From Verrucomicrobiaceae bacterium (lineage in GTDB: Bacteria > Verrucomicrobiota > Verrucomicrobiia > Verrucomicrobiales > Akkermansiaceae), in contig JAIXWR010000038.1 in the NCBI GenBank assembly GCA_027491155.1, positions 124,001-188,000 on the forward strand: a DNA stretch of 64,000 nucleotides, read 5' to 3'. The notes beneath the pieces are model-generated. The model saw only the letters and a list, made by a program, of their open reading frames with translations, was not told the origin of the DNA and did not search any database. Positions 7,897-60,151 of the stretch are shown here, in pieces (position 1 is the first letter of the stretch; each line of letters opens with the position of its first letter). The position numbers were made by a program, and so were the translations under genes.

Positions 7897-9054
7897 ATGA
7901 TTCATCGCGTTCTCATTGTGGGCTCCGGCTTTTCCGGAGCGGTTCTGGCCCGCCAGCTTGCCGATCTCGGCGGGATTTCCAGCCTCGTCATCGATTCGCG
8001 TAATCACGTGGCCGGCAACTGTCACACGGAGCGCGACGAAGGGACGGGCATCCTGGTCCATCGCTACGGTCCCCACATTTTCCACACCGACCGCGCCGAT
8101 GTCTGGGCTTATGTGAACCGTTTCGGGGAGTTCCGTCCTTTCGTGAACCGGGTCAAGGCTTCGATCCCCCGGGGCGTGTTTTCCCTGCCGATCAACCTTC
8201 ACACCATCAACCAGTTCTTCGGCAAGCGACTGAATCCCGAAGAGGCCCGGGCCTTTCTCCAAAGCAAGGCGGACCGGGGCATCGGTGAACCGGCGAACTT
8301 CGAGGAGCAGGCGCTGAAGTTCATCGGAAGGGAACTCTACGAGGCGTTCTTCCAAGGCTATACCCGCAAGCAATGGGGATGCGAGCCGACCGAGCTTCCG
8401 GCATCGATCCTGACACGGCTGCCGGTCCGCTTCAGTTACGACGACAATTATTACAACAGCCCTTTCCAGGGGATGCCGGCCGAGGGCTACACGGAAATCG
8501 TCCGGCGGATCCTCGATCACGAGCGGATCGCGCTGCGCCTGGAAACGACCTATGACCCTGCCATGGCCGGCGAGTTCAGCCACGTCTTCCACACCGGTCC
8601 GCTGGACGAATACTTCAGGCACCGGTTGGGACGCTTGTCCTATCGCACCGTGTTCTGGGAGAAGTCCGAGTCGACGGGTGATTTCCAAGGCAATGCGGTG
8701 ATCAACTACCCCGGCATGGAGGTGGCGCACACCCGTGTGCACGAGCACAAGCACTTCGCCCCCTGGGAGAAGCACGAAAAGACCCTTTCGTTCGTGGAAT
8801 ACAGCAAGGAGACCGGCGAGGGTGACATCCCGTATTATCCGAAACGGCTTTCCGGAGACAAAGAGCTGCTGGCCGCCTACGCGGCCCTCGCGCGCGGGGA
8901 GGAGCGGGTTTCATTCCTCGGGCGGCTGGCGACTTACCGCTACATGGACATGCACCAGGTGATCGGTGAAGCGATGGATTTCGCCTCGGACTGGCTGGCA
9001 GCGGCCGCGGCCGGAACCCCGTTTCCGGTCTTCCCGCCGAAGTCCGCCTTGTGA
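7897..9054 (+). CDS. glf: UDP-galactopyranose mutase
   Basis: A 385-residue flavoprotein that interconverts UDP-galactopyranose and UDP-galactofuranose, supplying the furanose donor for surface polysaccharides. The FAD-binding Rossmann motif VGSGFSGAVLARQLADLG begins near residue 5. HRYGPHIFHTD near residue 49, YTRKQWGCEPTELP and NYPGMEVAHTRVHEHKHF near residue 270 are signature stretches of the family. The length matches bacterial homologues. Its presence means the polymer probably contains galactofuranose. Confidence 0.95.
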   Translation: MIHRVLIVGSGFSGAVLARQLADLGGISSLVIDSRNHVAGNCHTERDEGTGILVHRYGPHIFHTDRADVWAYVNRFGEFRPFVNRVKASIPRGVFSLPINLHTINQFFGKRLNPEEARAFLQSKADRGIGEPANFEEQALKFIGRELYEAFFQGYTRKQWGCEPTELPASILTRLPVRFSYDDNYYNSPFQGMPAEGYTEIVRRILDHERIALRLETTYDPAMAGEFSHVFHTGPLDEYFRHRLGRLSYRTVFWEKSESTGDFQGNAVINYPGMEVAHTRVHEHKHFAPWEKHEKTLSFVEYSKETGEGDIPYYPKRLSGDKELLAAYAALARGEERVSFLGRLATYRYMDMHQVIGEAMDFASDWLAAAAAGTPFPVFPPKSAL

Positions 9055-9075
9055 ATCGCCACGCCGCGAACCGAC

Positions 9076-10239
9076 ATGAAAAAAAAGCACGCCGTCATCT
9101 ATCTCTGCAAAGGCTTGCCCTCGCGCTCGGGAGGCGGATTGGGAGTCGCCTACAACTACCTTTCGGCAACCTGGAACCAGCCGATGGCTCCCGTGGCGGC
9201 CGATCACATCCTGTTTTGCGGGGAAGCCGAGAAGCTGCTGGAACCCGGGCCTGTCGGCCTCGACGGGTTCCTTTCCTCTCTTGATCCCGGGCCACGCAGG
9301 GGTGCTTCCCTGTTTGCGTGGCAAGCGGGAAGGGTCAGGGAGATCGCGCGGAACTACGAAAAGGTGGTGGTGCTGGCATTCACGCCCTTTTATCTGTGGC
9401 CGCTGGTCCGGCCCTTCAAGGGCGGCAACATCGTCACTGTCCACAGCGAGCACGGCAAGGGCGGCCGTCACCATGAACTGGCGGAGGAACGCGGAAGCTT
9501 CGGCTGGCGCGAGCGCTTCGTCGAATGGTGCGTCGGATGGAATTTCCGGCTACCCGATCATGTCGTTTTCCCGAGCCGCGGTGCGCTGAATCTGTTCATC
9601 GACAAGAACCCCGCGCTCAAGGAGCCGGCCGCATCCAAGTCGGTCATCCTCTACAACGGGGTTGCGACTTGCGAGGCCCCGCCGCCGCGGCCGGGGAGCG
9701 GGCCCTTGGAGATCATTTCAGTCGCCCACCACGTCCGCGAGAAGGGCCTGGACGTCATGGTCGAAGCCCTGCGTCGGACCACGGCTGCCGGGGTCGATTG
9801 GCACATGCTGAACTTCGGTCACCTGTCGGGACTCACCGACGAGCTCCGCGCGCAGGCCGGGGCCGCGGGAATCGGCGACCGGATCGAGTTCGCCGGGCTC
9901 AAGCCCCAGGCGGAAGTCCGGGGCAGGCTCGCTGCGGGTGACGTGTTTCTCCACACGCCGACGATCGTGGTGTTCGATCTCTCCTTGCTGGAGGCGATGA
10001 TGCACGCGATCCCGGTGGTGACCGTGCCGCTCGAAGGCAACCGCGAGGCGCTGGGGGAGGACTATCCGCTGTATGCAACCACGCCGGACGAGATTGCTGA
10101 GCGGCTGCGCTGGATCGCCGGGCACCGCGCCGAAGCGGATGCGATCGGCCGGGGACTCCGGCAAAGGGCGCTCGAGATGTTCACCAACGAGGCCTTGGTC
10201 GGCCACTACGCCCGCTTCCTCGGACGGCTGCTGGAGTGA
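9076..10239 (+). CDS. Glycosyltransferase family 4
   Basis: A 387-residue GT-B enzyme. It begins YLCKGLPSRSGGGLGVAYNY, a first-domain glycine-rich loop. The donor domain starts EIISVAHHVREKGLDVMVEA near residue 214. DLSLLEAMMHAIPVVTVPLE near residue 301 is the E-x7-E region, with the first position changed to Asp/Leu. It directly follows the galactopyranose mutase gene, so a galactofuranosyltransferase role is possible but unproven. Confidence 0.83.
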   Translation: MKKKHAVIYLCKGLPSRSGGGLGVAYNYLSATWNQPMAPVAADHILFCGEAEKLLEPGPVGLDGFLSSLDPGPRRGASLFAWQAGRVREIARNYEKVVVLAFTPFYLWPLVRPFKGGNIVTVHSEHGKGGRHHELAEERGSFGWRERFVEWCVGWNFRLPDHVVFPSRGALNLFIDKNPALKEPAASKSVILYNGVATCEAPPPRPGSGPLEIISVAHHVREKGLDVMVEALRRTTAAGVDWHMLNFGHLSGLTDELRAQAGAAGIGDRIEFAGLKPQAEVRGRLAAGDVFLHTPTIVVFDLSLLEAMMHAIPVVTVPLEGNREALGEDYPLYATTPDEIAERLRWIAGHRAEADAIGRGLRQRALEMFTNEALVGHYARFLGRLLE

Positions 10240-10266
10240 TCGGCTCCCGCAGGAGATTTCCCCCGG

Positions 10267-12465
10267 ATGAACCTTCACTCAACATCGGCGGCCGGCATGT
10301 CCGCCCGGATGCCCGCGCTCGACGGCTTGCGGGGATTGGCGATCCTGATGGTGCTGGTCCACCATGTCTGCCTGCTCCCGCATCCGGTGCACCCGGTCGA
10401 CCGTTTCATCGAGCGCGCCTCGCGCCCGCTCTGGATCGGGGTCGATCTGTTGTTCGTGTTGTCGGGTTTCCTGATCACGCGCAGCGTGCTGGAAACAATG
10501 GGCCGGCCCGGCTGGCTCGGTGGCTTCTTTCTCCGCCGGTCGCTGCGGGTCCTTCCGCTCTACTTCCTTTCGGTAGTGCTGTTCCTCGTCGTGTTGCCGC
10601 AGTTCCCGTGGAGCGGTTTCGACGTTTACCGGGCTTATTCCGATGGCGAACTGGCGTCCTTCCTCTTCGCCTATCTGAATTACTTTTATGCCACGACTTG
10701 GCCGGCGGGCTACCTCGGTCATTTCTGGTCCTTGTGCGTCGAGATCCATTTCTACCTGGTCTGGCCTTTTCTCTTACTGTGGTTCAAGGGGCGTCTCGAA
10801 CTCTTGTGCAAGCTCCTGATCCTCGGGGTGACCTTTGCGAGGATCGGGGCGATCGCCACCGGCTACTGGACCGCCGAACTCGGCTACCATGCGACCCATC
10901 TCCGGCTCGACGCCCCGGTTGCGGGTGCCTTGGCCTACCTCGTCCTGCAGCGCTGCCAGAGTGATCCGAAGTTCCTTCCGCGGGTCCGTCGCCTGTTGGT
11001 TCCCTGTGCCTGCGTTGCCGCCGGGTTTCTGATTTTCGGGCGAACCCGCTCCAGCCATCTGGGCAATCTCGTCGGTTTTCCCTTCGTCGGAGCGACGATG
11101 TGCCTTTTCCTTCTGCTTGCGATCAAGGGAGAGATCCGCTGGCTGGATCGGATCCTGACCAGCCGCTTCATGGTCTGGAACGGGAAGCTGTCGTATGCGC
11201 TCTATGTTTTCCATTTCCCCGCAATCTATCTGGCGTGGCAACTCTTCTACCCCGGTGGCGAGCTTCCGTCATGGCGCGGCATGATTTGGCCCTTCGCGTT
11301 GCTTTCCGCCGCCGTGGCGATTCCGTTCACGTATGGTCTGGCGTGGCTTTCCGGAAAACTCATCGAAGGACCTTGCCAGCGGATCGCCCGATCTCCCGCG
11401 AAGTCCGCGGTCATGGTGGGTCCGGCCGCGCCGGCGGGTGGCGTGGCCGGCGTTTCGCGGCGGGACGAGGCGATCGACATCGCCCGCCTGGTGGCAGCCG
11501 TCCTGATCGTGCTTTACCACGCGGCCCAGTCATACTCCCTCGCGGGCGGAACGGATCTCAACGGCTGGCCGCCCTGGGCGATTGTCGGAACGATCTCGTT
11601 GTGGGGCCGGGTTCCGTTTTTCTTCTTCCTCGCCGGATGGCTGGCTTCGAAGTCGTTGGACAAACCGGGGGCCGATGGTGCTGCCTTTGTCGGGAAGAAG
11701 CTGAAGGGACTCGGGGTTCCCTATCTCTTCTGGAATCTCGTCTGCCTGTTGATGCTCTGGATTGCCGCGACCTCGGGACTTGGTCCCAGGGAAATTGAAG
11801 TTGCGGGCCTATCGCAGGTGCTGATGCAGTGGGTTGGCTTCGGAATGCCTCCCGCGAACGGACCCCTGTGGTTCGTTCGGGACTTGATCCTGGCTTCGCT
11901 GGCAGCGCCGCTGATGATGCGTCTGGGACCTTGGTTGCTCCTGCCCTGCCTGGCCTTGACCACCTGGCCGGAGCCCGTGATGTCCTGTCAGGCTGCGGGA
12001 ATTCCGCTCCCATCCTCGCTCGGTTATTTCGGGCTCGGAATGCTTTTCCGGTATCTGCCGCCGGGCAGCCTCGCCAGGTTCTTCCCCCGGCCGGGAACCG
12101 GAGCCGTTCTCTGCCTGATCGCCGGAGCCGTGGTGCTGGTCTACGATGTACCCCTGCCTCCTCTGGTTGGACCTGCGGTAGGTGCCGCGGGTATCCTGCT
12201 CACGGGGCGTTTCGTCCACGGTTCCCTGCCGGTGCTGGCAGGACGGATGGCGGCTTGGTCGGCGGCTTCCTTCATGTTGTTCGCGGCCAACGTTCCGTTT
12301 TTCGCCGTGGGCCGGGCGATTTACCTGAACCTTCCGGATAGGCCGCCGGCTGCCCTTTATTTCACCCTGCTCGCCTGTGCTTTCATTCCCCTCGGGATCG
12401 CCGGTCACCGCTGGCTCCGGGATCACTGTCCGGGAAGCCTGAGAATCCTGAGTGGAGGACGCTGA
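10267..12465 (+). CDS. Tandem membrane acyltransferase-3 fusion protein
   Basis: A 732-residue polytopic membrane protein made of two acyltransferase-3 units. Residues 15-375 are an OafA-type unit: ALDGLRGLAILMVLVHHVC with the conserved His, FVLSGFLITRS, then HFWSLCVEIHFYLVWPF. Residues 396-732 are a second, WecH/fucose-acetylase-like unit: AIDIARLVAAVLIVLYHAAQ, then FFFFLAGWLASKSLDK and NGPLWFVRDLILASL. Such enzymes move acetyl or other acyl groups across the inner membrane onto glycans. One uninterrupted frame covers both, so this is a fusion and not two genes. It ends 13 bases from a convergent gene. Confidence 0.85.
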   Translation: MNLHSTSAAGMSARMPALDGLRGLAILMVLVHHVCLLPHPVHPVDRFIERASRPLWIGVDLLFVLSGFLITRSVLETMGRPGWLGGFFLRRSLRVLPLYFLSVVLFLVVLPQFPWSGFDVYRAYSDGELASFLFAYLNYFYATTWPAGYLGHFWSLCVEIHFYLVWPFLLLWFKGRLELLCKLLILGVTFARIGAIATGYWTAELGYHATHLRLDAPVAGALAYLVLQRCQSDPKFLPRVRRLLVPCACVAAGFLIFGRTRSSHLGNLVGFPFVGATMCLFLLLAIKGEIRWLDRILTSRFMVWNGKLSYALYVFHFPAIYLAWQLFYPGGELPSWRGMIWPFALLSAAVAIPFTYGLAWLSGKLIEGPCQRIARSPAKSAVMVGPAAPAGGVAGVSRRDEAIDIARLVAAVLIVLYHAAQSYSLAGGTDLNGWPPWAIVGTISLWGRVPFFFFLAGWLASKSLDKPGADGAAFVGKKLKGLGVPYLFWNLVCLLMLWIAATSGLGPREIEVAGLSQVLMQWVGFGMPPANGPLWFVRDLILASLAAPLMMRLGPWLLLPCLALTTWPEPVMSCQAAGIPLPSSLGYFGLGMLFRYLPPGSLARFFPRPGTGAVLCLIAGAVVLVYDVPLPPLVGPAVGAAGILLTGRFVHGSLPVLAGRMAAWSAASFMLFAANVPFFAVGRAIYLNLPDRPPAALYFTLLACAFIPLGIAGHRWLRDHCPGSLRILSGGR

Positions 12466-38306: not shown

Positions 38307-38837
38307 ATGGGGGAAGCTCCGCGCAGGAAAGTCCCGGGATTGACCCTGCTTGATGAAAAACGGGGGGTCACTTACGCCATCGTCTTCGGGATCTGGGCGC
38401 AGGTCTTCCTCTACTGCGTGCTGCACGACCAGTACCTGATCCGGATCGCGCCCGAGCACTTCACCGAGTGGCATCCGCCGCTGTGGGGGATCGAGAACCT
38501 GACGCTGCTCGCGCTGGGCTGGGGCTTTCGCGCGTCGGTCGGGCCGGGGTTGGGCCTCGGGCTGGCGGCCTTGTTTCTGGGCCGCGCGGGCAGCCGGCCG
38601 AAGGTAGAGCCGGTCACGATGCTCAAGGTGCTTCCGCTGGGGATTCTGGCGACGGAGTTCGCCGGATTGCTGGCCGGGGCCTGGGTGTGGAGGACCGGAC
38701 TGCCGCTCTATCCGGCGGCGTTTTATCCGGATTTCTCCAAACCGCTGCTGATCACCCAGACCATCCAGCTCACGTGCTACGTGACGGGAGCGGTGGCGGG
38801 GATGGTCTACCTGGTGTGGATCGTGCGGCGGCGGTAA
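38307..38837 (+). CDS. Hypothetical membrane protein
   Basis: A 176-residue protein with about four or five hydrophobic segments, roughly residues 20-40, 60-100, 105-125 and 140-172. The C-terminus is Arg-rich (IVRRR). I do not recognise the family. It is likely co-transcribed with the secreted protein 8 bases upstream. Its TAA stop codon is the first three bases of a REP repeat, so the natural end of the gene may have been altered by the repeat's arrival. Confidence 0.7.
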   Translation: MGEAPRRKVPGLTLLDEKRGVTYAIVFGIWAQVFLYCVLHDQYLIRIAPEHFTEWHPPLWGIENLTLLALGWGFRASVGPGLGLGLAALFLGRAGSRPKVEPVTMLKVLPLGILATEFAGLLAGAWVWRTGLPLYPAAFYPDFSKPLLITQTIQLTCYVTGAVAGMVYLVWIVRRR

Positions 38838-38889
38838 GGAGTGTTGACCTGTGGTCAACACCGTGTCGACGGAACGTCGACACTCCTTA
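38835..38889. repeat. REP element, family 1, left copy
   Basis: Fifty-five bases with an outer stem TAAGGAGTGT/ACACTCCTTA. It encloses two hairpins: GTTGACC-tgt-GGTCAAC and GTCGAC-ggaac-GTCGAC. It differs at one base from the copy at 39506-39560 and lies in the same orientation. Its left end TAA is the stop of the membrane protein gene, and its right end, read on the other strand, is the TAA stop of the transposase gene. Confidence 0.9.
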
Positions 38890-39505: not shown

Positions 39506-39557
39506 TAAGGAGTGTTGACCTGTGGTCAACACCGGGTCGACGGAACGTCGACACTCC

Positions 39558-39560
<3 letters not shown>
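39506..39560. repeat. REP element, family 1, right copy
   Basis: Fifty-five bases identical to the left copy except one position (CCGGG for CCGTG). Its right end, read on the minus strand, is TAAGGAGTGT, and the TAA is the stop codon of carB. It is 11 bases upstream of the transposase start. The double hairpin may also serve as a bidirectional terminator. Confidence 0.9.
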
Positions 39561-53579: not shown

Positions 53580-53592
53580 CGCGACGTTTCAA

Positions 53593-53702
53593 GTAGCGGA
53601 ACGACTGCGTCGTTCCCGGAGGGCGCGGTCCGTCTCCTCACGGCGGAATGACATCCCCCTTCGAAACCCCGCCCCGCCGGAAGGGCGCAGCCCTTCCGCT
53701 AC
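53593..53702. repeat. REP element, family 2, copy A
   Basis: About 110 bases with ends GTAGCGG and CCGCTAC forming an outer stem. Two hairpins lie inside: GGAACGAC-tgc-GTCGTTCC and GGAAGGGC-gca-GCCCTTCC. It is followed after 28 bases by copy B, giving a 138-base period. Confidence 0.9.
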
Positions 53703-53730
53703 GGCTCCCGTGTGCCCTACGGCGTTTCCA

Positions 53731-53841
53731 GTAGCGGAACGACTGCATCGTTCCGGGAGGGTGCAGTCCGTCTCCTCACGGCGGAATGACACCACCCTGC
53801 GTAACCTCGCCTCCGCCGGAAGGGCGCAGCCCTTCCGCTAC
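53731..53841. repeat. REP element, family 2, copy B
   Basis: This element has the same structure and orientation as copy A, with scattered base changes between the hairpins. Its right end overlaps the transposase gene: the TAG stop at 53838-53840, read on the minus strand, lies in the repeat's end stem. Confidence 0.9.
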
Positions 53842-54407
53842 TCCCCCGAGGACGCGTGCTTCTTCACCTCCGCGTGATGGATCAGCCAGAAGCGTTCGAA
53901 CCATCCTTCCGCCCTGGGATCCGTGTCAGGATACCCGGCAGCAAAGGCACCGAGATACCGCCAATCCCGCCAGTCCTTCACCAACTCAGCCCGTTCGGGA
54001 TTCCCCAGCACGTAAAACACCGTGTCTTCGAACGCGGTCGGATTGCGCTCGTGTTCGTTCAGCACGTGGTCGTAGCCCTGCTTTTGGAGCTCGAACCCGC
54101 GTGCTCGAAGTTCCCGGTTCCAATAGCGGCGGAGAAAGGCCGCCGCCGCGAGCTGGTCGGAGGCCGGCGCGGTGCCGAGCCAGAGGAAATGGGCGTGGTC
54201 CGGCATCAGGCAATAGGCGGGAGCGACGAGGTGGTGGCGAGCCATGGTGTGGAGGAGCAGTTCGCGGAAGCGGGCATGCATGGCTTCGTCCAGCCAGCCG
54301 CGTTTCCTCCCTTGGATCGTCATGCTCCAGTGAACCCACGCATAGCCGGTGTACCAGCCCCCGGGGAGGCGGCGGAGATAGTCCGGCGATTCGTCGGAAA
54401 GAGGCAT
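53838..54407 (-). CDS. REP-associated tyrosine transposase (RAYT), second family
   Basis: A 189-residue Y1-type transposase, only distantly like the one at 38887-39495. YCLMPDHAHFLWLGTAP near residue 73 contains the HUH metal-binding pair as H-A-H. LQKQGYDHVLNEHERNP near residue 117 holds the probable catalytic Tyr. YVLGNPERAELVKDWRDWRY is the typical downstream block. It starts at an ATG rather than at the TTG that extends the frame. REP copies A and B lie downstream; copies C and D upstream. Confidence 0.9.
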   Translation of the reverse strand: MPLSDESPDYLRRLPGGWYTGYAWVHWSMTIQGRKRGWLDEAMHARFRELLLHTMARHHLVAPAYCLMPDHAHFLWLGTAPASDQLAAAAFLRRYWNRELRARGFELQKQGYDHVLNEHERNPTAFEDTVFYVLGNPERAELVKDWRDWRYLGAFAAGYPDTDPRAEGWFERFWLIHHAEVKKHASSGE

Positions 54408-54503
54408 GGGATCATGGGGAGATAAATCCAAGATCTCAGCCCGGGGCGAGAGGTTTTCGTGGCTCCGCCACTCCTTTTGCGGAATCGGCAGCTCACGCCT
54501 CCA

Positions 54504-54612
54504 GTAGCGGAACGACTGCGTCGTTCCCGCGGGGTGCGGCCCGCCTCACCAAGGCGGAATGACGAGACCCGACAAAGCCCGCCCCGCCGGAAGGGCGCAG
54601 CCCTTCCGCTAC
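54504..54612. repeat. REP element, family 2, copy C
   Basis: A full copy with the same outer stem and both hairpins as copies A and B. It lies upstream of the transposase start. The 28-base spacer after it resembles that between A and B, so the A-B and C-D pairs are copies of one dimer unit. Confidence 0.88.
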
Positions 54613-54640
54613 GGATCCCGTGCGCTCTCTCGCTTTTCAC

Positions 54641-54682
54641 GTGGCGGAACGACTGCATCGTTCCCTCCGGGCTTGCGCCCGG
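54641..54682. repeat. REP element, family 2, truncated copy D
   Basis: Only the left hairpin (GGAACGAC-tgc-ATCGTTCC) is kept. After it comes an unrelated hairpin, CCGGGC-ttgc-GCCCGG, 14 bases before the trpE start. It begins 137 bases after copy C. Its position means that trpE is expressed through, or past, this structure. Confidence 0.8.
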
Positions 54683-56253: not shown

Positions 56254-56817
56254 ATGCTCCTCATCATCGACAACTACGACTCCTTCACCTACAACCTCGT
56301 CCAGTATTTCGGCGAGCTCGGGGCGGAGATGAAGATCGTGCGCAACGACGCGTTGACCGTGGACGAGGTGAAGGCGCTCAAGCCGGAGCGGATCTGCATT
56401 TCGCCCGGTCCCTGCACGCCGAACGAGGCCGGGATTTCCTGCGAACTGATCGAGAAGCTCGGCGCAAGTACGCCAATTCTAGGAGTTTGCCTCGGCCACC
56501 AGTCGATCGGACAGGTCTATGGCGGCGAGGTGGTCCGCGCGGCGCAGCTGATGCACGGCAAGACCTCGCCGATCCACCATGAGGGCAAGAGCGTCTTCGC
56601 CGGCCTGCCGAGCCCCTTCGAGGCGACCCGCTACCATTCGCTCGTCGTCAAGCGCGAGACCTTGCCCGACTGCCTGGAGATCACCGCCTGGACCGCCGAC
56701 GGCGTGATCATGGGCCTCAAGCACAAGGAACATCCGGTCCACGGCGTGCAGTTCCACCCGGAGTCGATCCTGACCCAGGACGGGAAGAAGATCCTCGAGA
56801 ACTTCCTAGGGTTCTGA
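56254..56817 (+). CDS. trpG: Anthranilate synthase component II, glutamine amidotransferase
   Basis: A 187-residue class I amidotransferase that supplies ammonia to TrpE (and may also serve PabB). It starts [18 protein letters not shown]. The catalytic Cys is in [20 protein letters not shown] near residue 77. The His and Glu are in [19 protein letters not shown] near residue 165. The 3' end is duplicated about 1 kb downstream. The stop overlaps the convergent ion-channel gene by 12 bases. The in-frame TTG upstream was rejected. Confidence 0.95.
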
Positions 56818-57636
56818 GCGGCCTTCGAGCCGGGCGCGGAGGGTCTTGAGATCGGCCTCGAGCCGGTCGAGCAATTCCTTGTCCGGGGCGGGCGCCTTCC
56901 GCTCCGGTGCCATCGCGAGTTCCTGCATGGCGGATACGATCACTCCGATGAACAGGTTCAACGCGGTGAAGGTGGCGGTCAGGATGAAGGGCAGGAAGAA
57001 TGCGGGAGCCCACGGATGGGTCTTCATGATCACCCGCACCATGTCCGCCCAGCCTTCCAGGGTGAGGATCTGAAAGAGCGTGAACAGGCTGCGGCCGAGA
57101 CCGCCGAACCATTCGGGGTAATCATCGCCGAAGAGGTTCGTGGCCAGCACCGCCGAGGTGTAGAGCAGGATGCCCAGCAGGGCCGACACGCCACCGAGGC
57201 CGGGAATGGCGTGAAGAAAGGCGGCGACCACCTTGCGCAGCGAGGGAACCACGCTCAGCAGGCGTAGCACCCGGAGGACACGGAGCGAACGCAGCACCGC
57301 CCACGGGCCTGCACCCGGCACCAGCGCGATCCCGATGACGAAAAAGTCGAAGCAATTCCATCCGTTGCGGAAGAAGCCGCCGCGTTGCGCGAACAGCTTG
57401 GCCATGAGTTCCGCGACAAAGAGCAAAAGGCAGAGCCTGTCGATACCGATCAGCAGTCCGCCCCAGCCGGCCATCAAGGCATCGCTGGTTTCCAGCCCGA
57501 GGACCAGCGCGTTGACCAGGATGGCCGCGACCACCACCCGTTGAACCCGCGGGGACTCGACAAATTCCGCGACCGCCACGCGGGTGGGTGACTCATCTGG
57601 GGCCGCCCGGAGCTGTTTCAAATCGTCTTCACCCAT
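56806..57636 (-). CDS. Voltage-gated-type ion channel (single six-helix unit)
   Basis: A 276-residue ion_trans protein, the size of bacterial NaChBac-type sodium channels. [20 protein letters not shown] near residue 115 is the S4 voltage sensor with Arg at every third position. The pore has [20 protein letters not shown] near residue 180, where T-L-E-G-W aligns with the T-L-E-S-W sodium filter. A last helix precedes an acidic/basic helical tail, likely a coiled coil. The start at MGEDDLKQ was preferred. It lies between two copies of the trpG 3' end. Confidence 0.88.
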
Positions 57637-57795
57637 TCCGAGTCCAGTAATTGAACGGCGGCCGGAAGGCCATCTGGAAAGACGGTTGTATTTTCCATTC
57701 TGGGCGATCATCGCCCGCCCATTGGTCTCCGCAGCGGGGCGGCGCGAGGCTCGAGGGCAAGAAGCCGGACTTCGGATTTCCTGGAGCCCGGCGAA

Positions 57796-57858
57796 CACCC
57801 GGAGTCGATCCTGACCCAGGACGGAAAGAAGATCCTCGAGAACTTCCTGGGTTTCTGA
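57796..57858 (+). pseudogene. Duplicated 3' end of trpG
   Basis: Sixty-three bases match 56755-56817 (the last 21 codons of trpG including the stop) at 60 positions. All three differences are synonymous third-position changes in the trpG frame. No other part of trpG is present. It is a direct repeat 1041 bases from the original, bracketing the ion-channel gene. It ends four bases before the end of the convergent phosphodiesterase gene. Confidence 0.93.
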
Positions 57859-57861
57859 CCC

Positions 57862-58656
57862 TCACTTCGCCGCCAGCGCCTGGCGCAGGAAGCCGGGGCG
57901 GTTGGTGGTGATCGAAAGGGCGCCGAGGCCGAGGAAGCGCTTCGCGGTGGCGGGGTCGTCGACGGTCCAGCAGTGGTATTCGAAGCCGGCGTCGCGGATG
58001 GTCTTCACGAAGGCCGCATCGATGCGGGCGTCCGCCTTCGAGCTGAAGCCGTCCGCCTTGATCCGGCCGACGGTGGCGAGGACCTCGGCGGTGCCGGGAT
58101 CGAGCGGCGATCCTTTGCCGAACGACGACAGCCAGCAGGCCTTGTAGTCCGGCTTGCGCTTCTTGAGTTCCTCGATGACCGGCGCGTTGAACGAGATCAC
58201 GACGAGTTGCTCGGTCTTGAGTCCGGAGGCGGCGAGATCTTGCAGCATCGCGGGCACGATCTCCGGGCCGCATTTCACCTCGAGGTAGAACTTCTTGCCC
58301 GCCGGGACGGTGGCAATGACGTCGCGCAGGGTCGGCATCGTGGTGCCTTTGAACTCGGGCTTGAACCAGGCCCCGGCGTCGAGCGCCTGCAGCTCGGCCA
58401 GGGTGCTGTCCTTGACCGACTTCTTCGTGCCCGAGACGCGCCTGGTGTCGTAATCGTGGATGCAGACGATCTTGCCGTCGGAGGTCAGGTGGAAGTCGCC
58501 CTCGATCGCATCGGCACCCTGTTTCCAAGCCAGCTCGAAAGCCGGCAGCGTGTTCTCCGGGGCATCGTGCGAAGCGCCGCGGTGGGCGACGAGGAAAGGT
58601 TCGGCGGCCTGAAGGCCGGCGGCGGCGAGGGTTAGCATCGTGAGGAGGGTGCGCAT
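57862..58656 (-). CDS. Glycerophosphodiester phosphodiesterase
   Basis: A 264-residue secreted protein with signal peptide LLTMLTLAAAGLQA. FLVAHRGASHDAPENTLPAF near residue 21 has the catalytic His-Arg and the metal-binding Glu-Asn pair. AIEGDFHLTSDGKIVCIHDY near residue 49 has E-x-D and the second catalytic His. FYLEVKCGPEIVPAML carries the third metal-binding Glu. It would hydrolyse deacylated phospholipids in the periplasm to glycerol-3-phosphate. The start was chosen at the signal peptide. Confidence 0.93.
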   Translation of the reverse strand: MRTLLTMLTLAAAGLQAAEPFLVAHRGASHDAPENTLPAFELAWKQGADAIEGDFHLTSDGKIVCIHDYDTRRVSGTKKSVKDSTLAELQALDAGAWFKPEFKGTTMPTLRDVIATVPAGKKFYLEVKCGPEIVPAMLQDLAASGLKTEQLVVISFNAPVIEELKKRKPDYKACWLSSFGKGSPLDPGTAEVLATVGRIKADGFSSKADARIDAAFVKTIRDAGFEYHCWTVDDPATAKRFLGLGALSITTNRPGFLRQALAAK

Positions 58657-58777
58657 GGGAAGAATCCGGTCAGACTGCCGATACGCGGCGGCGGAGTGGA
58701 GCCTTGCCGCGCGACGCATCCGTCACCGGGTCGGGTCGCCTGCTTGCCAAGGAAGGTGGCGTGGGGTCGTGTGAGGA

Positions 58778-58972: not shown

Positions 58973-59074
58973 AGGCTCCCCATGAGCGGGAAATCCGCGC
59001 CTTCCGCGAATTCCGCGCCTCGCTGGGCTGACATCCCGGTTGCCCTCCGCCGTGCACCTGCTTCAATGGCGGGG

Positions 59075-60151
59075 ATGACGAAAGACGACCGGGAATTCCT
59101 GTTCCACCTGCTCCAGACGCCCAGCCCCACCGGCTTCGAGATGCCCGGCCAGCGGGTGTGGGCGGATTATCTCCGGCCGATCGCCTCGGAAGTGGCTTGC
59201 GATGCCTACGGCTCGACCTGGGCGCGGCTGGAAGGGAAATCCCCGCGGACCGTGATGCTGGCCGCCCACGCGGACGAGATCGGCTTCATGATCAAGGCGA
59301 TCCAGTCCGACGGCTTCATCCGCATCGACCGGGTCGGCGGCAGCGACGTGGCCACCGCGCGCGGCCGGCGGCTGGTCTTCGCCGGCGACAAAGGGCCGGT
59401 CCTCGGGATCATCGGCAACACCGCGATCCACCTGCGGCGCGACAGCGCCGGCGACGAGAAAGCCCCGCAGGTCCACGAACTGTGGGTCGATGTCGGGGCG
59501 TCGAACGCCAAGGAAGTCGCCGCGCTCGGACTCCGCGTCGGCCACCCGGCGGTCTATCAGGACGGCCCGGCGGAGCTCGCGCACAAGCGGCTGATCGGCC
59601 GGGCGCTCGACAACCGGATCGGCGGCTACATCATCGCCCAGGTGCTGAAACGGATCGCCAAGGGCCGCAAGAAGCCGGCCTTCTCGCTGCTTTGCCTGAA
59701 CGCGGTGCAGGAGGAGATCGGCGGCAACGGCGCGATGATGGCGACCTACCGCCATTTCCCGGACGCCTGTATCTGCCTGGATGTCACCCACGCGACCGAC
59801 ACGCCGGGGATCGACCCGAACAAGCACGGCGCGGTGAAGCTGGGCGGCGGTCCCACCCTGTCGCACGGCACCGCGAACCACCCGCGGGTGGTCAAGCGGC
59901 TGATGGACGTGGCGGCGAAGGCAAAGATCCCGGTGCAGCACGAGGCCAGCAGCCGCTACACCGGCACCGATACCGACAAGATTTTCCACATGCGGGAAGG
60001 GGTGCCGAGCGCGCTCGTCTCGCTGCCGCTGCGCTGCATGCACTCGGTGGTGGAGACCGCCCACCTCGACGACATCGAGCGGACGATCGGGCTGCTGGCC
60101 GGCTTCGTGATGTCGCTCGACGCCGCGGACGACTTCCACCAGTCGCTATGA
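59075..60151 (+). CDS. M42 family metallopeptidase
   Basis: A 358-residue aminopeptidase/glucanase-type enzyme. The two-metal site is visible: VMLAAHADEIGFMI near residue 64 (His, with catalytic Asp), LIGRALDNRIGGYII near residue 173 (bridging Asp), NAVQEEIGGNGA near residue 209 (Glu base and ligand), CLDVTHATDTPG near residue 231 (Asp), and LPLRCMHSVVETAHL near residue 318 (His). It trims peptides in the cytoplasm as large assemblies. The start MTKDDREFL was chosen from three; upstream codons look non-conserved. It overlaps the next gene by ATGA. Confidence 0.9.
   Translation: MTKDDREFLFHLLQTPSPTGFEMPGQRVWADYLRPIASEVACDAYGSTWARLEGKSPRTVMLAAHADEIGFMIKAIQSDGFIRIDRVGGSDVATARGRRLVFAGDKGPVLGIIGNTAIHLRRDSAGDEKAPQVHELWVDVGASNAKEVAALGLRVGHPAVYQDGPAELAHKRLIGRALDNRIGGYIIAQVLKRIAKGRKKPAFSLLCLNAVQEEIGGNGAMMATYRHFPDACICLDVTHATDTPGIDPNKHGAVKLGGGPTLSHGTANHPRVVKRLMDVAAKAKIPVQHEASSRYTGTDTDKIFHMREGVPSALVSLPLRCMHSVVETAHLDDIERTIGLLAGFVMSLDAADDFHQSL

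Follow-up and report, generated by a model that had tools for sequence, protein, structure and literature searches.

A predicted channel gene between two copies of the trpG 3′ end in a Verrucomicrobiaceae bacterium: probable one-sided recombination anchored on trpG

The trpG locus and its repeated 3′ end

The window (i.e., the whole stretch of Verrucomicrobiaceae DNA that was analyzed, 64,000 nt in length) contains a complete trpG at positions 56254..56817 of the forward strand, which encodes a working anthranilate synthase glutamine amidotransferase (Pfam GATase, 210.8 bits) and is conserved in relatives. The last 63 bp of the gene (copy 1; 56755..56817, forward strand) occur again on the same strand at 57796..57858 (copy 2), forming a direct repeat with 95% identity and a spacing of 1041 nt. 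The initial annotation had described exactly such a repeat, with three synonymous differences, and the repeat finder together with a check of the reading frame confirmed it. In a self-BLAST of the window the pair was recovered with E = 2e-21, and the first 29 bases of the repeat, which form the longest run of identity between the copies, were found twice in the window vs. 0.00 times expected (100 shuffles). The mismatches lie at repeat positions 30, 54, and 57, and all three are synonymous in the trpG frame, although synonymous changes make up 21.7% of the possible single changes in this stretch (P ~0.01 for three of three by chance). Similarity to trpG was not found upstream of the copy-2 boundary in the window. 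Copy 2 consists of a truncated trpG 3′ end, which may be the old gene end of the recipient.

Comparison of the 63-mer with the whole 5.7-Mb genome gave three matches with E < 0.01, namely copy 1, copy 2, and the end of a diverged second trpG, which lies on contig C24 (E 1.8e-10); the fourth-ranking match had an E-value of 0.09. The repeat is therefore not widespread outside this site, as it might have been if the initial annotation's reading were wrong. The second trpG is complete (L035 8118-8681; G000 contig C24), and its product shares 86% amino acid identity with that of the first. The small surrounding locus held no trpE match; by eye, a sigma-factor-like ORF adjoins the gene, and the first bases downstream of it resemble those following a trpG of G047, a member of another family. 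A 79-bp perfect repeat brackets this second trpG (L035 5886-5964 and 9980-10058, 4.1 kb apart). In G047, a 71-bp sequence ending AAGCGATTTCCTAGCAGT occurs 11 times in the 13 kb around trpG (L053 5374-18737), and the 79-bp repeat resembles it at the ends only, by eye; both are possibly mobile palindromic repeats. The window itself carries a 55-bp repeat (38835-38889 and 39506-39560, 98% identity) that flanks one ORF, presumably a REP-associated transposase, and a group of related repeats (53589-54664; 115-166 bp, 83-84% identity) immediately upstream of trpE.

The insert between the two copies of the trpG end (56818..57795) is 978 bp long and has a GC content of 0.643, vs. 0.647 for the window. 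Its sole recognizable gene lies on the reverse strand at 56806..57636, convergent with trpG, and gave a Pfam Ion_trans match of 128.4 bits, in agreement with the single sodium-channel-like gene described initially. The start at 57636 is our choice, whereas the mechanical ORF start is at 57798; ~160 bp (57637..57795) separate the putative start codon from the join with copy 2. The closest solved protein chain was 5hvx (E 8.6e-71), in which the pore sequence reads TLESWSM where the window protein has TLEGWAD, and the S4 arginines are visible in the alignment. With an Ion_trans domain, S4 arginines, a TLExW-type pore motif, and a single unit of 6TM size all present, the protein is predicted to be a member of the bacterial voltage-gated sodium channel family, presumably of the NavAb/NavMs kind. 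PADLOC returned no match for the channel, and relatives of it were found in 39 of 72,556 plasmid records, every one at <60% identity.

The channel gene owes its TAG stop codon to the complement of a leucine codon, CTA, close to the copy-1 end. At this place copy 2 reads CTG, so the channel frame would not terminate there; the match between copy 1 and the channel as a single unit is suggestive. CTA accounts for five of the 170 leucine codons across five genes here and is not that rare, so its role as the channel stop is no proof of co-transfer.

Downstream of copy 2, a glycerophosphodiester phosphodiesterase gene (GDPD; Pfam GDPD, 143.6 bits) is located on the reverse strand at 57862..58719. 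Its stop codon (57862-57864) is 3 bp from the end of copy 2 at 57858, and the placement of copy 2 beside the phosphodiesterase stop was thus borne out. GDPD may be the old convergent neighbor of trpG. A putative peptidase-like gene (58982..60151, forward strand; with a match in 17 of the 18 genus genomes) forms the right edge of an interval that varies among relatives.

trpG loci in relatives

A DNA search for trpG covered 57 genomes, including those of 17 other genus members, and gave a match in 52; G005, a genus member that is 61% complete, had no trpG match in this search and its locus was left out. Twenty trpG loci, most of them preceded by trpE, were compared (two from the window genome, 16 from other genus members, and one each from the family and the order), each trpG being aligned with the 4-10 kb that follow it. 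A second trpG end on the same strand turned up at just two loci, that of the window and that of G012. The other genus loci (15 of 16) have a single trpG end, and this channel was next to trpG in none of the 16. The comparison of junctions proposed at the outset therefore succeeded in part: single ends without the channel are the rule in the genus, but an empty trpG-phosphodiesterase site was not found. No relative carried both copies without an insert, a pattern that would have spoken against the insertion reading.

Neither a trpG-channel donor nor an empty trpG-GDPD junction was found when trpG, the channel, and GDPD were searched in the 57 genomes, and an exact 27-base pattern had no match in the genome contigs. 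The channel was matched in five of the 17 other genus genomes, i.e., G001, G006, G014, and G017 with 58-64% identity and G002 with 27%; these matches are on a different contig from trpG or, in G002, >1 Mb away from it. The search for the channel and trpG was extended to 386 genomes of the order, a subset of a larger group. Outside the window genome, the best channel match by E-value was that of G006 (64% identity), and G122 had a shorter match of higher identity (65%, the maximum found). By eye, there was no channel match ≤20 kb from trpG among the genomes that had a trpG position in the matches listed. The order-wide trpG search scored two candidates per genome and missed copy 2 of the window, making it no test for short copies.

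The trpG-end repeat was present in none of 40 further loci of the order, which were selected from the listed order-wide rows and three of which have <2 kb of downstream sequence, and in none of the 80 trpG loci of named genomes (four with <2 kb downstream). The footprint thus occurs in two of 17 genus genomes that have trpG, one of the two being the window genome, vs. none of 42 loci outside the genus (the 40 order loci, G029, and G047). By hand calculation the chance of this distribution is 136/1711, or ~0.08; the excess in the genus is not significant, and the window genome was chosen for its repeat, the count being one of 16 when it is set aside. Several other matches were left out of the copy counts. 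These are a 34-bp match downstream of trpG in L102, within a restriction-subunit-like ORF; a 25-bp match upstream of trpG in L120; four matches of 21-30 bp in L209, L214, and L219; amidotransferase paralogs in L222 and L229, with 31% identity and on the opposite strand; and inverted matches of 16-25 bp in L042, L049, and L051. In L102 (a named Verrucomicrobia MAG, JAPLTG010000004), two type I restriction-modification-like ORFs were seen by eye directly after trpG (9001-12359).

The DNA downstream of trpG is in part common to some of the relatives. G008 and G011 share downstream sequence, one gene is common to G003, G009, and G015, and another to G013 and G017. In six genomes the peptidase-like gene follows trpG at a distance of ≤16 kb, namely at ~2.2 kb in the window, 1.7 kb in G003, 3.6 kb in G009, 4.8 kb in G015, 8.7 kb in G012, and 15.5 kb in G006, and the content of the interval is variable, being partly common to some relatives. 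In G002, a single contig, the two genes are 2.4 Mb apart; in the remaining genomes they are on different contigs. GDPD was seen beside trpG in no relative. It adjoins the peptidase gene in G007, G008, and G011 and is 4 kb from it in G010, with trpG on other contigs in these genomes; in G006, GDPD is on a different contig from both trpG and the peptidase gene. The linkage of GDPD to the peptidase gene makes it plausible that trpG-phosphodiesterase-peptidase was the old order here and that copy 2 represents the old trpG end.

A parallel structure in G012 and the origin of the insert

In G012, trpG is followed by a convergent NACHT/HEAT gene and then by a 450-bp truncated trpG. The cargo protein of 1197 aa has NACHT and HEAT domains (Pfam), with a DUF4062 match under its cut-off, and its first 316 residues match the PADLOC candidate PDC-S60 (E 2.6e-27). 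The truncated copy, or stump, lies beyond the start of the NACHT gene and begins near trpG position 118. Its stop codon overlaps that of a convergent cyclase gene, just as the window stump abuts the convergent phosphodiesterase gene. From position 127 onward, 32 of 441 sites distinguish the stump from the working gene of G012 (93% identity), affecting 29 codons, of which 27 are changed synonymously (P ~4e-15 vs. random change); they therefore look like two alleles, each of them formerly a working gene. At the 32 sites, the commoner base among ten genus members is that of the stump in 20 cases and of the working gene in 11, with one tie, in a hand tally that covers the sites from 132 on and leaves out three differing sites at the edge of the join (124-126). 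On this comparison, the working-gene end of G012 leans toward being the newcomer and the stump toward being the old end. An allele switch near trpG position 200 of G012 was considered and rejected, as a site-by-site check showed no clear switch. If numbering begins three bases ahead of the ATG, the first trpG position present in the stump is 505 in the window and ~118 in G012. With its different cargo and truncation point, G012 is an independent parallel to the window event.

The initial annotation had likened the repeat to the footprint of an integrative element. A site-specific element with its attachment site in the trpG 3′ end, which would rebuild the gene on entry in the manner of islands at tRNA genes and of which a decayed remnant is left, would account for the restored trpG end and for a 63-bp direct repeat with a 29-bp identical run. 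However, no recombinase was recognized in either the window or the G012 insert; the genes that the family search covered, the channel and the NACHT gene, occupy nearly all of their inserts. The repeats are imperfect (95 and 93%), that of G012 is 450 bp long, and their truncation points differ, so no common core is seen, and the differing stump starts are evidence against one fixed site. The absence of the trpG-end repeat from the 40 other order loci and 80 named loci also argues against such an element, which we regard as very unlikely, and this part of the early interpretation was dropped.

The two window copies were compared with 16 genomes, as had been suggested for deciding which copy matches relatives better. 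Copy 1 was nearer in nine genomes and copy 2 in three, in each case by one or two bases, with four ties. The two closest relatives disagreed, G006 being nearer to copy 2 and G010 to copy 1. The direction was not settled by this comparison, which, if anything, leans slightly against copy 1 as the newcomer. There are just three differing sites by which to judge an allele switch within the window repeat. The window copies are nearest to one another (three differences vs. at least six to any relative), and both have a lysine codon, AAG, that neither G006 nor G010, the nearest relatives, has. This shared codon implies either that the donor was very close or that the copies diverged after a local duplication. 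In the latter case, the trpG end would have been duplicated in tandem within the lineage and the channel inserted later between copies that then drifted apart. While the mutual proximity of the copies and their common lysine codon fit this course of events, drift of an unselected stump should produce non-synonymous changes, and what was seen is three of three synonymous differences in the window and 27 of 29 codons in G012. Two events would moreover be required in each of two species. We therefore consider a tandem duplication unlikely.

It is very unlikely that the structure arose during assembly through the wrong joining of a trpG-channel haplotype and a trpG-phosphodiesterase haplotype from two strains. 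A draft in 46 contigs with an estimated contamination of 4.56% might permit such an error, but an erroneous join would be needed between the DNA upstream of the channel and the stump, where the window has no shared sequence, the composition of the insert equals that of the window, and a structure identical in kind sits inside a 128-kb contig of G012.

We propose instead that a DNA fragment of a relative, carrying the channel gene, was probably joined behind trpG by one-sided, homology-anchored integration. In the donor, a close relative, the channel would already have been convergent with the trpG end and have overlapped it. The left join would have been homologous, within trpG or farther upstream, and the right join non-homologous, with or without 3-10 bp of microhomology, the DNA past the upstream region of the channel being fused into the recipient trpG 63 bp before its end. 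Such a combination of joins would leave trpG with a full end received from the donor, add the channel behind it, and strand the last 63 bp of the recipient gene before its old neighbor, the phosphodiesterase. That trpG is complete and conserved across the repeat shows the gene to be intact at the presumed homologous end. An analogous event, with another cargo and truncation point, would have taken place independently in G012. Two routes may be envisaged, one with linear DNA that resembles homology-facilitated illegitimate recombination (HFIR) and a single crossover of a circularized fragment; the 63-bp repeat, with its identical run of 29 bp, is a short crossover substrate. All of the following are inferred: the transfer from a relative, the route, the former order of trpG and phosphodiesterase, and the direction, with copy 1 coming in and copy 2 already present. 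Recombination with the allele of a relative, the other possibility raised initially, is thus supported as plausible by the 15 of 16 single-end loci and by the allelic copies of G012, though a donor was not found.

ComEC- and DprA-family proteins were matched in all 18 genus genomes, so DNA uptake is possible; since ComEC was also matched in 10 and DprA in 11 of 14 control genomes, competence is unproven and the support is weak. To our knowledge, gene acquisition in this group has been little studied. Somewhat doubtfully, we suggest that the trpG end may be a recurrent landing place in the genus, where one-sided homology to a core gene repeatedly loads accessory genes of relatives without the machinery of mobile elements. 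If so, the stranded gene ends would record the order of events, and truncated allelic ends of core genes beyond a new gene would be a readable mark of natural one-sided recombination. Two independent trpG cases in one genus could also allow one to ask how often accessory genes spread by core-gene homology alone.

Comparison with known systems

A literature search for islands at trpG found none, and we make no claim that such cases are unpublished. The window event is a new example of an already known, ordinary kind of event. In Vibrio cholerae, T6SS effector modules are displaced sequentially while orphan immunity genes are retained, and an HFIR-like route was suggested by the authors (PMC5361080). 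As in that system, the upstream anchor is conserved, a new module is brought in, and the old 3′ part is moved downstream. In V. cholerae the region is a toxin cluster; the anchor here belongs to core biosynthesis, and its cargo has no relation to trpG.

In an E. coli conjugation experiment, PCR detected a duplication in 56 of 60 clones, and sequencing of 14 showed 109-950 bp to be duplicated (PMC3240628). The authors attributed the duplications to single crossovers by circles that lacked part of the homology and regarded the remaining four clones as HFIR with deletions (PMC3240628). The product of such a circle crossover consists of the gene, the insert, and a partial gene copy, as in both the window and G012; the absence of a clear allele switch along the G012 copies is a point of difference. 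HFIR itself has been reported from Streptococcus pneumoniae, Acinetobacter baylyi, and Pseudomonas stutzeri (summarized in PMC3240628). The window event resembles it in having one homologous and one presumably non-homologous end and a cargo of ~1 kb. It differs in that the usual HFIR product deletes recipient DNA, whereas here 63 bp (450 bp in G012) are kept twice. Thus, the event works like HFIR, but because recipient DNA was duplicated rather than deleted, it is not classed as classical HFIR.
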